This document shows, piece by piece, positions 1,992 through 7,521 of a stretch of 7,521 bases of DNA. The notes beneath the pieces are model-generated. The model had not been told where the DNA came from. It made no database searches and was given only the letters and a program-made list of their open reading frames with translations. Both the position numbers and the translations under genes were made by a program. The DNA is taken from assembly GCA_021784715.1 (NCBI GenBank), contig JAJYHP010000188.1, positions 1-7,521 on the forward strand, read 5' to 3'. The stretch comes from a bacterium (GTDB lineage Bacteria > Eremiobacterota > Eremiobacteria > Baltobacterales > Baltobacteraceae). The stretch's first letter is position 1; every line of letters begins with the position of its first letter.

Positions 1992-2432
1992 TCACGCCGC
2001 ATCCTGGGCCGACGCTGAAGGCAGGGTTCTTTCCCCGTGGACCAGCGTCATCGCGCCGAGCACGTCGATGGGGCTGACGATGATCTCCACCCCGGCCCGC
2101 CGGGCTCGACGGAGCGCGCTCGGCTCGGGGAGACTCCGGGTGAAGAGGTGGACGGAACGGGTGGCACCCCGCCGAGCGAGATCGCGCGCGTAGGCCGCGA
2201 TATCACCGCGAGCACGCTGGGCCGCCGTGGGGTGGAGCTCGGCGACGCCCGAACCGCGCAGCAGCAATGCAAACGAGCCGGAGTGCTGGGAGGAGCGCGG
2301 CGTGAGTTCGACGATCGCGGCCTCGACGGCGGCGTTCGCGAGGCTACCGCCCCACGCATAGAGGGCGATCCGCTGAGGGCTCCGATCGGGTTGCGGATCC
2401 ACGAGAAGTCCGCTGGCATGAAAAGCGTTCAT
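1992..2432 (-). CDS. Uncharacterised 146-aa protein upstream of the two-component system
   Basis: I do not recognise a family. From ATG 2432 it encodes 146 residues without cysteine, rich in Ala, Arg and Ser. There is no signal peptide or membrane segment. Alternating hydrophobic strands and helices (RIALYAWGG, SFALLLRGSG, SVHLFTRSL, VEIIVSPIDVLGAM) suggest a small soluble alpha/beta fold. A GTG at 2453 would add seven residues but lies against the TGCCA-N6-TGGCA repeat, so ATG 2432 is preferred although no strong Shine-Dalgarno is visible. The stop codon is 25 bp before the response regulator's preferred ATG (16 bp before the alternative one), so it is probably co-transcribed with the two-component genes. 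The opposite strand is also open here, but this minus frame has the more protein-like composition and fits the unidirectional gene order. It may be an accessory or regulatory protein; this is inference only. Confidence 0.6.
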   Translation of the reverse strand: MNAFHASGLLVDPQPDRSPQRIALYAWGGSLANAAVEAAIVELTPRSSQHSGSFALLLRGSGVAELHPTAAQRARGDIAAYARDLARRGATRSVHLFTRSLPEPSALRRARRAGVEIIVSPIDVLGAMTLVHGERTLPSASAQDAA

Positions 2433-2454
2433 GCCCCGATTCTGCTCGCGCACC

Positions 2455-2472
2455 CTGCCAGATGTATGGCAG
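2455..2472. promoter_or_regulatory. Inverted repeat TGCCA-N6-TGGCA, possible operator (site 1)
   Basis: CTGCCA-gatgta-TGGCAG is a perfect 6-bp inverted repeat with a 6-bp spacer, in the 62-bp gap between the peroxiredoxin stop and ATG 2432 of the next gene. The 5-6-5 core has the geometry of sites bound by CRP/FNR-type homodimers. The same arms and spacing recur at 3967..3982 at nearly the same distance from another start codon. A protein-bound operator is inferred; no clear -35/-10 pair is visible beside it. Confidence 0.45.
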
Positions 2473-2494
2473 AGTGCGCGGCACCGATGCGATT

Positions 2495-2995
2495 TTAGAG
2501 TTTTGCGAGTTCCTCGAGAATCTGCTCGGGATCGGGCGCCTCGCCCATCGCATGGATATCGATGTAGCGGACGACGCCGTTCCGATCGATAATGAAGACC
2601 GCTCGCTCGGCAAAGCCGCCGTCGCGCAGCACGCCATATGCCTTCGCTACCTCACCGTGCGGCCAGAAATCCGCGAGCAGCGGGTAGGTGATGCCGCCCA
2701 TGCTGAGAGCCCAGGCGCGCAACGAGTGTACTGAATCGATGGAGATGCCCACGACCTGGGCACCGTGCTCGGCGAAACGCGGCAGCGCGCGTTCGAAGCC
2801 GGGCATTTCATTCGTTCAAGTCGGCGTGAACGCGAACGGGATAAAGGCCAGCACCGTCGCGCCGACGCCCTTCCGATCCGCGAGCGAAAATTTTTCGCCG
2901 AGATGGCTTTCAAGCTTGAACGCGGGGGCGGCATCGCCCGCTTTCAACGTCGAACTCTGCGAGGCCGTCGACGTGCGGCCAAAGGTTGTACTCAT
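2495..2995 (-). CDS. Selenocysteine-containing AhpE/Bcp-type peroxiredoxin (TGA at the catalytic position)
   Basis: Predicted thiol/selenol peroxidase reducing hydrogen peroxide or organic hydroperoxides in the cytosol. ATG 2995 to TAA 2497..2495 gives 166 aa if the in-frame TGA at 2818..2816 is read as Sec60; AhpE and Bcp proteins are about 153-160 aa. The N-terminal thioredoxin-fold half (KAGDAAPAFKLES, about 18-30; VLAFIPFAFTPT, 48-59) leads into the active site P53-x3-T57-x2-U60-TNEM, the family's PxxxTxxC motif with TGA at the peroxidatic Cys. The C-terminal half (GISIDS, YPLLADFWPHG, KAYGVL, R131 in ERAVFIIDRNG) strongly resembles mycobacterial AhpE, and R131 is the likely catalytic arginine. 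No cysteine occurs anywhere, so it would be a one-Sec enzyme needing an external reductant. No in-frame ATG, GTG or TTG lies upstream of 2995. A SECIS-like hairpin follows the TGA. Standard annotation would start at ATG 2806 and lose strand and active site. The alternative is a nonsense mutation or sequencing error in a Cys codon. Confidence 0.87.
2770..2801 (-). promoter_or_regulatory. Candidate bacterial SECIS hairpin downstream of the Sec TGA
   Basis: On the minus strand the outer stem CGGC/GCCG (2801..2798 with 2773..2770) and the inner stem AACGCG/CGCGTT (2793..2788 with 2781..2776) enclose a 6-nt apical loop CGCTGC (2787..2782), with a small internal loop between the stems. An alternative inner pairing CGAACGCG/CGCGTTTCG has one bulged U. 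The loop starts 28 nt after the TGA and has G as its second base. Bacterial SECIS elements need a G within the first two loop bases, at about 16-37 nt from the UGA, and this one fits. It lies within the coding sequence, as is usual in bacteria, where SelB recognises the loop. Confidence 0.7.
2816..2818 (-). other. In-frame TGA, predicted selenocysteine codon (Sec60)
   Basis: The minus-strand codons read ACG CCG ACT TGA ACG AAT GAA ATG. Translation upstream (PFAFTPT) and downstream (TNEM) matches the peroxiredoxin active site on both sides without a frameshift, and TGA occupies exactly the column of the peroxidatic Cys (TGC/TGT). Sec at this position is known in peroxiredoxin-family selenoproteins. 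The selenocysteine machinery (selA, selB, selC, selD) is not in this window. Confidence 0.85.
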
Positions 2996-3051
2996 GGGCC
3001 CCCATTTGCCTGCGCGTGCATGATGCCCCTCTCGCCCCGCAACCTCAAGCG

Positions 3052-3384
3052 TTAGACGGAGGCCTCGAATGGCTCGCGGTACTCTTCGTCGCCTTCAAAG
3101 AAGCCGAGTAAATGCTCTTCGAGGTAGAGCAAATGGAGCTCGCGATCGAGCTGCGCGTAACGTTCGGCGTGAGCGGCGCGAAAGGCATCCCAGTCGCTCT
3201 TACTCTCCCACACATCGATCGAAAGATAGATATCTTCTTCGGCGCGATGGCGGAAGAGACGCGTGCGCCGATATCCGGGATGACTTTTAAACAGGTTTGC
3301 AAAGGGCCCATTGGAGCCGAAGGCATGTTCGAATGCCGACGCCTGCTGTGGATGAACGCGATAACGATAGAAAACCTCGACCAC
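3052..3384 (-). CDS. Small antibiotic-biosynthesis-monooxygenase-like (ABM, dimeric ferredoxin-like) protein
   Basis: A 110-aa protein with the pattern of the ABM superfamily: a first strand VEVFYRYRVHPQQASAFEHAF, a middle section HPGYRRTRLFRH followed by the strand EEDIYLSIDVWESKSDWDAF, then an amphipathic helix and an acidic C-terminal tail. Members form dimeric ferredoxin-like alpha/beta barrels and act as cofactor-independent oxygenases, haem-handling proteins or small-ligand binders; the substrate here cannot be told. It lacks cysteine. The start is GTG 3384, supported by a strong Shine-Dalgarno five bases upstream, and no in-frame ATG is better placed. It begins 18 bp after the stop of the upstream gene and ends 56 bp before the peroxiredoxin ATG, so co-expression with an oxidative-stress function is plausible but inferred. 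Confidence 0.85.
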   Translation of the reverse strand: MVEVFYRYRVHPQQASAFEHAFGSNGPFANLFKSHPGYRRTRLFRHRAEEDIYLSIDVWESKSDWDAFRAAHAERYAQLDRELHLLYLEEHLLGFFEGDEEYREPFEASV

Positions 3385-4042: not shown

Positions 4043-5398
4043 TTAGAGCTCTTCGATGCTGATCCCGTTGCGCTGGTCGTACTGAGTCCGCGGTTTCGCG
4101 ACGTGTACCGATTCGTGCTCCGCGTACTCGCCCTCGTAATGCACCGTCGGGGGTGCGTTATTGCGCTCGTATGCCGACGCGAGCCGGCTGGTATCGCCGC
4201 CGCCGACCGCCATCGCTTCGATGAGGGCCGCTTCGTCGGCCGTCATCGCGTACGCGGTATCGAACTGCGGGTGAAGCGGACGTCCGTCCGGATCGATCTC
4301 TTCGCCCTGCGGTTGAATGGTGAGGTTGCGATAGCGCGACATACCCGTTCCTGCGGGAATGAGTTTGCCGATGATCACGTTCTCTTTCAACCCGAGCAGC
4401 GGATCGTATTTTCCGCGAATCGCTGCGTCGGTGAGGACGCGCGTCGTCTCTTGGAACGATGCCGCCGAGAGGAACGAATCGGTCGCGAGCGAGGCTTTCG
4501 TGACGCCGAGGAGCACCGGAAGTGCTTCCGCGATATCTTTTTTCTCGGCGCGCGCTTTTTCGTTTGCGTCGTTGAAGACCGAGGATTCCACCGTCTGTCC
4601 GGGGAGCAAGTGCGTCGCACCGCCGTCGGTGATCTTCACCTTGCGCAGCATCGAACGCACGATCACTTCGATATGCTTGTCGTTGATATCGACGCCTTGC
4701 GAACGATAGACCTTCTGCACTTCTTGAACCAGATAATCCTGAAGCGCGGTCTCGCCCTTAAAGCGAAGGATGACGTGCGGATTGAGCGATCCTTCGGTGA
4801 GACGGTCGCCGGGTTCGACGAGTTGCCCCTCGGTCACCGCGAGATGCGTCCCTTGCGGAATCTCGTAGACCGGCGGCTGGTTTTTCTCATCGTAGAGCGC
4901 GGCTTCGTCGGTGACGATCACGGTGCGATGGACCTTATCCTCACCGAACGAGACGCGTCCCGCGATCTCGGCGACGATCGCTTCACCCTTGGGTTTGCGC
5001 GCTTCGAAGATTTCTTCGACGCGCGGGAGACCGGTGATGATATCCTCGGTCGCCACGCCACCGGTATGGAAGGTACGCAGGGTTAGCTGCGTGCCCGGTT
5101 CGCCGATCGATTGCGCGGCGATAATACCGACAGCGGTGCCGATATCGACGTGTTTGCCGGTCGCGAGATCGCGCCCGTAGCACGCCGAGCAGACGCCGTA
5201 TTTCGACTTACAGGTCAATACCGAACGGATCTTCACCGTCGGAACGCCCGCATCGACGATTTCCTTGGCCTTATCTTCGTCGATCTCTTCACCGCGCTTG
5301 ACGAGCGTCTCCTTACCGTGGACGACGTCCTCGGCGCAGCGACGACCGATGATACGGTCGGTGATCGGTTCGATAATCTCGCGTCCGACGCGGATATG
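4043..5398 (-). CDS. rpoC: RNA polymerase beta-prime subunit, C-terminal part, after an in-frame TAA
   Basis: This is the same reading frame as the upstream rpoC part, continuing for 451 codons after TAA 5401..5399. Conserved beta-prime sequence resumes at once ([17 protein letters not shown] aligns with Bacillus EIIERLEERLIGR). Then come three zinc ligands in [17 protein letters not shown], the trigger-loop region ([17 protein letters not shown]), which lacks the large proteobacterial SI3 insertion, [15 protein letters not shown], the jaw and clamp region ([18 protein letters not shown]) and the C-terminal [17 protein letters not shown]. The natural stop at 4045..4043 is also TAA. If translated separately, the first standard in-frame start is GTG 5236, 54 codons after the stop; it has no clear Shine-Dalgarno and would discard conserved residues. 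Either one gene with a point lesion or error, or a split subunit. Confidence 0.9.
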
Positions 5399-5401
5399 TT
5401 A
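5399..5401 (-). other. In-frame TAA interrupting rpoC
   Basis: Minus strand GGC ATT CTC GTC TAA CAT ATC CGC GTC GGA. Against Bacillus beta-prime (GILAEPLKEGTEII) the TAA falls on a Glu column with no insertion or deletion, so one substitution (for example GAA to TAA) explains it. It separates the first Cys of the second zinc site from the other three. No hairpin or recoding signal is evident next to it. Confidence 0.9.
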
Positions 5402-7521
5402 GACGAGAATGCCGTCGGCGGTGCCGCAATCGTCCTCGCGAACGATGACGTCTTGCGCGACGTCGACGAGGCGGCGCGTGAGGTAGCCGGAGTCGGCGGT
5501 ACGGAGCGCCGTATCGGCGAGCCCCTTACGAGCGCCGTGCGTCGAGATGAAGTACTCGAACATCGTCAAGCCTTCTTTGAGCGACGCCTTCACCGGGATT
5601 TCGAGAATCTCGCCGCTCGGATCGGACATCAGTCCGCGCATACCGCCGAGCTGCTTGACCTGTGCGATCGAACCGCGAGCGCCCGAGGTCGCCATCATGA
5701 AGACCGGGTTGAGCGGCTCCTGCGCCTTCTGCATGGCTTGCGTGACGTCTTCGGAGGCCTTCGACCAGATCTCGATCGTCTTGTTGTACTGCTCCGACTG
5801 GCGGATGAAGCCTTGCTCGTAGAAGCGATGCAATTCGTCGACTTCGCTCTGCGCTTTTTCGATGATCGCATGCTTGGCTTGAGGAACGACGATATCGCTC
5901 ACCGAGACCGAGGTGCCCGAACGCGTTGCGTACCGGAACCCAAGCTCTTTGACCGAGTCGAGGAACATTGCGGTCTCTGCATTTCCGTAGTTCCGGTAGC
6001 AGAGCGTGATGAGCTTCTTGAGCGCACTCTTATCGATGATCTGGTTGACGAACGCGTGGTTCCAATGTTTGGGGAACGAGCTATTGAAGATCACGCGCCC
6101 CGCGGTCGTTTTGATCAACTCGCCGTTAAAGCGCACGTAGATCCACTCCTGGAGCTTCACCGCATGGCTTTCGTACGCGAGCATGACTTCGTTAAAGCTC
6201 GAGAACGTCGGCAGCGAGCCCGGAGCATCGGCCGTGGGAGCGTTCTTCTTCGTCGGCCGATCGCTGATATCGAAGTTTTCGGTAATCTCGCCGCGCGCCG
6301 GGCCCTTATATTCATCGCGTTGGAACGTGATGTAGTAAAGGCCCAACACCATATCTTGCGTCGGAATCGAGACGGCGTTTCCGTACGCCGGCAGCAAGGT
6401 ATTGTTCGAGGAAAGCATGAGGATCCGCGCTTCGGCTTGCGCGCCCGCTGAAAGCGGAAGATGGACCGCCATCTGGTCGCCGTCGAAATCGGCGTTGTAC
6501 GGCGTACAGACCAACGGATGCAAATGGATCGCCTTGCCCTCGACGAGAACCGGCTCGAAGGCCTGAATACCGAGACGGTGGAGCGTCGGGGCGCGGTTGA
6601 GCAGCACCGGATGCTCCTTGATGATCTCTTCGAGAACGTCCCACACCTCGGGCTTCACGCGCTCGACCATGCGCTTCGCGCTCTTGATGTTATGCGCGAG
6701 CTGCCGGTCCACGAGCTTCTTCATCACGAACGGCTTGAAGAGCTCGAGGGCCATCTCTTTGGGGAGACCGCACTGGTGGAGTTTCAGCGTCGGGCCGACC
6801 ACGATCACCGAACGGCCGGAGTAATCGACGCGCTTTCCGAGTAGGTTCTGGCGGAAACGCCCCTGTTTGCCTTTGAGAATATCGGAGAGCGATTTCAACG
6901 GGCGATTGTTGGGGCCCGTCACCGGGCGACCGCGACGGCCGTTGTCGATCAGCGCATCGACCGCTTCTTGCAGCATGCGCTTTTCGTTCTTGATGATGAT
7001 CTCCGGCGCGTTGAGATCGAGCAAACGCTTGAGGCGATTGTTGCGATTGATGACGCGGCGATAGAGATCGTTGAGATCGGAGGTGGCGAATCGGCCGCCG
7101 TCGAGCTGCACCATCGGGCGCAGTTCGGGCGCGATGACCGGAACCGCTTCGAGTACCATCCACTCCGGTTTATTGCCCGAGGTGATGAGCGCTTCGACGA
7201 TCTCCAAACGCTTGATCGTCTTGAGATGCTTCTGGCTGACGGTATCTTTGCCGGCGCGCGTGCGGCGCGAGCCGTTCGGGCCGCCGTCGAGTTCGGAGCG
7301 CAGTTCGTCGCGAACCTTCTGGAGGTTGAGATCCTTCAGGAGCTCCCGAATCGCTTCGGCGCCCATCCCCGCCTTGAACTGCACGCGACCGCGATCGTCT
7401 TTATGCTTGTCGGAGAGTTCGCGATACTTCTGCTCGGAGAGCACCTCGCGTTTTTGCAACGGCGTATTGCCGGGATCGATCACGACCCACGCGGCAAAAT
7501 AGATCACCTTCTCCAGCTGCC
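5399..7521 (-). CDS. rpoC: RNA polymerase beta-prime subunit, N-terminal and catalytic part (5' end outside window, ends at TAA)
   Basis: Catalytic core of transcription, partner of RpoB, RpoA and sigma. The frame is open at the window edge ([17 protein letters not shown]), so the GTG at 7507 is an internal Val codon. Roughly the first 110 residues, including the N-terminal zinc finger, lie outside. Visible blocks are the lid/rudder/zipper region ([40 protein letters not shown]), [18 protein letters not shown], the active-site NADFDGD with three Mg-binding Asp residues (6496..6476), the funnel and F-loop region, and the bridge helix ([20 protein letters not shown]) followed by VREDDCGT, whose Cys (5428..5426) is the first ligand of the second zinc site. 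The frame then meets TAA 5401..5399 directly after ADGILV. The sequence is otherwise intact and well conserved. This break is not at the cyanobacterial rpoC1/rpoC2 junction, which lies farther upstream. Confidence 0.95.

Follow-up and report, generated by a model that had tools for sequence, protein, structure and literature searches.

The window analysed here is a stretch of 7,521 nucleotides (contig JAJYHP010000188.1, assembly GCA_021784715.1) from a member of the Baltobacteraceae in the phylum Eremiobacterota, and the genes and features that concern us are the following:

2995..2495, minus strand: predicted AhpE-type peroxiredoxin selenoprotein gene, ATG start, 166 codons, stop TAA at 2497..2495
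2818..2816, minus strand: in-frame TGA, codon 60, at the peroxidatic position, with a predicted reading as selenocysteine (Sec)
2816..2839, minus strand: PxxxTxxU active-site motif, P53 to U60, sequence P53-F-A-F-T57-P-T-U60
2762..2815, minus strand: SECIS-like stem-loop and putative SelB site directly after the TGA; in the fold of minimum energy its apical loop lies 28 nt further on
2603..2605, minus strand: codon of Arg131, the counterpart of AhpE Arg116 in the alignment to AhpE, and invariant in alignment A1
2495..2806, minus strand: 103-aa ORF, the product of ordinary gene calling, taken as part of the longer gene and not as a separate one
3052-3384, minus strand: protein with an ABM domain (antibiotic biosynthesis monooxygenase family), encoded immediately upstream of the peroxiredoxin gene
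7519..4043, minus strand: rpoC, running beyond the window edge, with an in-frame TAA at 5401..5399

A preliminary description of this DNA, made from the sequence alone, had reported one continuous minus-strand frame of 166 codons from ATG 2995 that is interrupted once, by the TGA at codon 60, and that holds no cysteine codon outside codon 60. Both statements were reproduced when the frame was read through. Ordinary gene calling had been expected to reduce the gene to a 103-aa fragment from ATG 2806, and indeed a standard ORF listing splits 2995..2495 into ORFs of 59 and 103 amino acids, while the 103-aa forms of this gene and its near relatives are present in the protein database as P0002, P0005 and P0008 (the search found 760 proteins, and statements on it rest on the 120 matches listed). 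Against the Pfam AhpC-TSA model the read-through frame scores 124.8 bits, residues 1-59 alone 26.2 and the 103-aa piece 75.1. Because gene callers trim the gene to a fragment, this lineage of Sec peroxiredoxins is easily missed.

The sequences on either side of the TGA had been described as matching AhpE/Bcp peroxiredoxins, and this assignment can now be narrowed to AhpE, with Bcp dropped. Among proteins of solved structure the closest in sequence is AhpE (97.7 bits, followed by a 2-Cys peroxiredoxin with 68.3), and when the predicted model of the protein (pLDDT 93.1) was compared with known folds, ranks 1-12 were taken by chains of one protein, again AhpE. The AhpE structures (1xvw, 4x0x and others) align to the window protein with a TM-score of 0.86-0.87 by query length and 34-35% identity. 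The likeness extends to the PxxxTxxC motif and the active-site Thr and Arg, and the window protein is likewise without a resolving Cys. In the alignment, Sec60, Thr57 and Arg131 correspond to Cys45, Thr42 and Arg116 of AhpE, the roles of which are described in PMC4965862 (excerpt). The two differ in that AhpE has Cys at the peroxidatic position, whereas the window protein would have Sec and comes from a different phylum. The AhpE subfamily is placed in the Actinomycetales by a review (PMC6155587, excerpt), and the AhpE-type enzymes found here therefore widen its range.

The statement in the preliminary description that Sec replaces the catalytic Cys in some peroxiredoxin-like selenoproteins agrees with the literature, in which Sec peroxiredoxins are listed as a selenoprotein family, 'Prx', defined by a PF00578 domain with TxxU (PMC13188914 and PMC9312934, excerpts). 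PxxxTxxU is given as the motif of Sec peroxiredoxins in excerpts of these two papers and of PMC1088965 and PMC1794560, and PrxU of Eubacterium acidaminophilum is the founding member as cited in the same passages of PMC9312934 and PMC13188914; Sec peroxiredoxins are called rare in an excerpt of PMC8533274. The window protein has both the PF00578 domain and the TxxU of the 'Prx' definition, and shares with that family the predicted Sec at the peroxidatic position. It belongs, unlike PrxU, to the AhpE subfamily, and scores 52 bits with the NCBI PrxU model (NF040737), far below the cut-off of 270. With the NCBI model for Prx-SUH, a thiol peroxidase (NF045827), it reaches 43.9 bits where the cut-off is 298; Prx-SUH, a peroxidase of this superfamily, is also listed as a selenoprotein, but has the motif CxxU (PMC13188914, excerpt) in place of the TxxU of the window protein.

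The machinery for Sec insertion, which the preliminary description had proposed to look for, is present in full in the window's genome (2.21 Mb in 45 contigs, about 90% complete). A tRNA-Sec was found with 68.5 bits (gathering threshold 47), in agreement with ARAGORN, which gives the anticodon tca, and SelA (457.9 bits), SelB (302.4) and SelD (364.7) all exceed their cut-offs, with selA and selB adjoining each other; tRNA-Sec and SelB were sought in this genome only. A single TGA occurs within the SelD frame (L017, G000:C30:1136-2059), in SSCAG-U-ASKL. An FdhA-like frame (L143, G000:C45:94677-95426), which scores under the FdhA family cut-off, has an in-frame TGA in ARI-U-HSSTVPGLG; SelD and FdhA can carry Sec at such positions. 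From these motifs, the SelD is probably a selenoprotein itself and the FdhA-like frame probably a further one, and together with the peroxiredoxin at least three frames in the genome would therefore use Sec.

The read-through protein was then searched against 117 genomes of the class, with near-full-length orthologues taken as those with an E-value of at most 2e-50. There were 35 such rows in 34 of the 117 genomes, 33 of them with one TGA and 2 with none; counted by genome, 32 have one in-frame TGA and two (G047 and G092) have none and encode Cys. In G075 the gene is in two pieces, with the TGA in the upstream piece. Within the window's genus a full-length match is present in nine of the ten genomes (the window's included), all nine with one TGA, and the tenth, G055 (81% complete), gave no match. 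For the 35 rows, 30 loci (L020-L049) were fetched, the remaining five rows contributing a stop count only. The codon in the peroxidatic column is TGA in 28 of these loci and TGT or TGC in two, so both of the states that had been envisaged for column 60 are seen among homologues. The same column is Cys in 33/33 database homologues aligned with it, which places the TGA exactly at the peroxidatic Cys, as had been claimed. Pro at -7 occurs in 52/52 TGA rows and Thr at -3 in 50/52 (near-copies included). Degraded flanks in close relatives had been named as evidence that would tell against the Sec reading, and the relatives have intact flanks together with the TGA. A SelA was found in 31 of the 32 genomes with a TGA row, compared with 99 of all 117; in G057 (63% complete), which has the TGA form, no SelA match was found. 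With G075 counted, the TGA form occurs in 32 of the 99 genomes with SelA vs 1 of the 18 without (Fisher p 0.022, relatedness ignored).

More distant peroxiredoxins, with 35-41% identity and one in-frame TGA each, were seen in G003, G005, G007, G009-G013 and G103, and these possibly represent a second Sec peroxiredoxin family in the class.

A scan of named genomes gave 561 confirmed loci, and among the best 80 of these 24 have TGA and 56 a Cys codon. The TGA forms in the best 80 come from Anaerolineales, Sulfobacillus harzensis, a Bacillaceae MAG and single MAGs otherwise titled, and many of the Cys forms are from Streptomyces, by title. The nearest named loci are MAGs, with the protein of L053 (Candidatus Eremiobacterota bacterium) being 96% identical. 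The L053 genome is very probably G049, which belongs to the window's genus, since the SelA matches of the two agree in contig number, coordinates and score. The carriers among named strains are Sulfobacillus harzensis DSM 109850 (L056) and Anaerolinea thermolimosa IMO-1 (L066), both with SelA in their genomes. SelA was found in 13 of the 15 genomes of named Sec loci that were tested and none matched in two; one of the 15 is probably G049 again, and L050-L054 probably repeat class-genome loci, and the class and named-genome counts were kept separate.

Across the nine genus rows, pN/pS is 0.074 before the TGA and 0.073 after it, values that point to purifying selection being equally strong on both flanks. 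Synonymous divergence in the same rows is 0.46 in codons 1-59, 0.19 in codons 61-79 and 0.42 in codons 80-166, and the low value in codons 61-79 fits a second layer of information right behind the TGA. Between the window and G050 there are 2 differences in the 719 bases of 2290-3008, and over 2401-3000 there are 0-1 per 200 bases, compared with 2-23 in the remainder of the window; this near-identity across the peroxiredoxin gene may reflect either strong constraint or recent exchange.

In the window, the putative stem-loop has the upper stem GAACGCG/CGCGTTT and the loop CGCTGC, 28 nt past the TGA. The 57 bases from the TGA onwards were folded for each gene and compared with 60 shuffles in which synonymous codons were permuted within the gene. 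In the 14 Eremiobacterota Sec rows the mean was -20.4 kcal/mol vs -13.5 in the shuffles (z -7.1), and in 19 other Sec rows -19.3 vs -12.8 (z -9.5), with 0/60 shuffles as low in either set, whereas the 25 Cys rows gave -13.7 vs -13.7 (z -0.1), with 27/60 shuffles as low. At five other offsets all three sets had z between -2.5 and +2.5; for the segment 60 bases upstream none of the 60 shuffles was as low in either Sec set, with small z of -2.5 and -2.4. The start of the apical loop falls 23-32 nt past the TGA in 31/33 Sec rows vs 14/32 Cys rows. With RNAalifold, neither Sec group yielded a shared structure at the TGA (0.00), and both yielded one 120 bases downstream of it (-4.95 and -5.10, values reached by 1 and 5 of 60 shuffles). 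Even the commonest base pair has a mean probability of no more than 0.45, and the hairpin therefore shifts register. A guanosine in a small apical loop is described for the SECIS (PMC1088965, excerpt), and G is among the first two apical-loop bases in 26/52 minimum-energy folds, that of the window included. For the window alone, a single fold of 56 nt showed no excess stability against dinucleotide shuffles (z 0.48). From the codon shuffles, the bases following the TGA appear to be selected for folding, and an excess that is found in the Sec genes but not in their Cys homologues is as would be expected of a bacterial SECIS.

The gene thus very probably codes for an AhpE-type peroxiredoxin with one selenocysteine, Sec insertion and activity being predictions, because the TGA is conserved at the peroxidatic column, the Sec machinery is at hand, purifying selection acts on both flanks and the folding is selected. 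The one-Sec AhpE-like peroxidase of the preliminary description, likewise a prediction, is supported by that machinery, by the intact flanks and by the conserved TGA of the relatives. The SECIS-like fold, the occurrence in other phyla and the glutaredoxin fusion (below) lay beyond what that description could see.

The other explanations turn on whether the TGA is genuine and how it is read. That the gene is a pseudogene, or a Cys peroxiredoxin with a recent nonsense mutation, could be argued from the TGA lying one base away from a Cys codon and from the rpoC of the same window also having a non-conserved stop, yet the TGA occupies the same codon position in 28/30 loci, is conserved across genera, families and phyla, and is flanked on either side by sequence under equal purifying selection in a genome that has the Sec machinery. 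This leaves next to no room for a pseudogene; a random nonsense mutation at precisely this codon had already been considered unlikely in the preliminary description. The rpoC stop, lying in an essential gene, calls for its own explanation: the TAA site is a sense codon in four named loci (with peroxiredoxins 89-96% identical) and in G050, from which the window differs there by two adjacent bases. Since the TAA is not conserved in relatives, it is probably a local sequence error of the assembly and not a change of code, and a general recoding of stops was rejected, the site being a sense codon in the four named relatives and G050. The rpoC error leaves the peroxiredoxin TGA untouched, and the relatives confirm the latter. 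It does mean that the window has at least one probable local error, which might raise the suspicion of a similar base error at 2816..2818, but an assembly error there can hardly be credited when all eight other genomes of the genus that have the gene carry TGA.

A genuine TGA might still be read through in part with Cys or Trp, or terminate translation to give two functional pieces, and it is true that a separate ATG, at 2806, opens the 103-aa ORF. The piece from 2806, though, is without the catalytic position and the strands preceding it, and the folding signal is found in the TGA genes and absent in the Cys homologues, which makes this reading very improbable. Somewhat more weight, if still an unlikely one, goes to the idea that Sec is inserted into a protein whose main role is to sense peroxide, to act as a thiol relay or to reduce some other oxidant, and not to detoxify peroxides. 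The neighbours are of little help in this respect, as they comprise the ABM-domain protein (its match to the HmuQ model is far under the cut-off), two ORFs without a Pfam match and rpoC; against it stand the conserved AhpE active-site residues and a fold that is that of AhpE.

For the preferred reading, a one-Sec peroxidase, the following course of events can be proposed. SelB with Sec-tRNA(Sec) would bind the stem-loop after the TGA and insert Sec at codon 60. With Thr57 and Arg131 holding it in place, the selenolate would then attack H2O2 or an organic hydroperoxide. The resulting selenenic acid, with no resolving Cys in the chain, would depend for its reduction on a low-molecular-weight thiol, on a glutaredoxin or mycoredoxin-like protein, or on both. 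The one-Cys enzyme AhpE is reduced by mycoredoxin, directly or via a mixed disulfide with mycothiol (PMC4360819, excerpt). Three Grx-domain matches, one each with CGFT, CPYC and CGYC, were found in the window's genome, and no Grx-type ORF was identified within the window itself. A C-terminal glutaredoxin domain is present in 12/12 TGA loci with a frame of at least 246 aa among the best 80 of the 561 named-genome loci:

L057, L058, L060-L067, L069 (titled Anaerolineae or lower) and L072 (titled Actinobacteria): predicted Sec-AhpE-glutaredoxin fusions

In these fusion loci the Sec-AhpE domain is 48-56% identical to the window protein and has its TGA at the equivalent place; the glutaredoxin domain is what the window protein lacks. 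Database proteins of the fusion kind (P0048, P0076 and P0079) begin past the TGA. Reduction by a Grx-type partner, which we infer from the AhpE paradigm, from the three genomic Grx-domain matches and from the fusion of Grx in Anaerolineales, would be the least certain step of the scheme, and a free thiol or sulfide is a candidate alternative; sulfide is considered a candidate reductant of one-Cys peroxiredoxins, slower for the AhpE type, in PMC12697902 (excerpt).

The exchange of Sec and Cys in this group can be followed to some extent in a tree of 118 rows, obtained by a quick search with 56 of its 115 inner branches drawn open, in which the fewest Sec/Cys changes number 11, four of them forced by well-supported branches. 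Both Cys forms from Eremiobacterota are nested among Sec forms, with moderate branch support of 80-88, and this nesting suggests changes from Sec to Cys in Eremiobacterota. We lean slightly towards a broader view, in which the AhpE-type one-Sec peroxidases would be a subfamily of their own with a broad distribution (Eremiobacterota, Anaerolineales, Sulfobacillus, a Bacillaceae MAG and others) marked by repeated Sec/Cys replacement, with glutaredoxin supplying the missing resolving residue, as a separate protein in Eremiobacterota and fused in Anaerolineales.

In open-licence full texts, no paper was found on selenoproteins or selenocysteine in Eremiobacterota, nor on a selenocysteine peroxiredoxin-glutaredoxin fusion. 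No Sec form of AhpE is named in the excerpts of PMC6155587 and PMC12697902, the main text of PMC13188914 contains no words beginning AhpE, Eremio or Chloroflex, and PMC9312934 contains no AhpE. The Sec peroxiredoxin family as such is thus known, and it is for the AhpE identity and the glutaredoxin fusion form that no description was found in the open-licence texts.

These findings correct a gene that is present in databases as a fragment without its catalytic residue, and they mean that a little-known phylum probably employs selenium in its defence against peroxides. The existence of related Sec and Cys versions of the same enzyme (for example L029 and L045 vs Sec relatives) also offers a test of the benefit that selenium brings to a one-Cys peroxidase.
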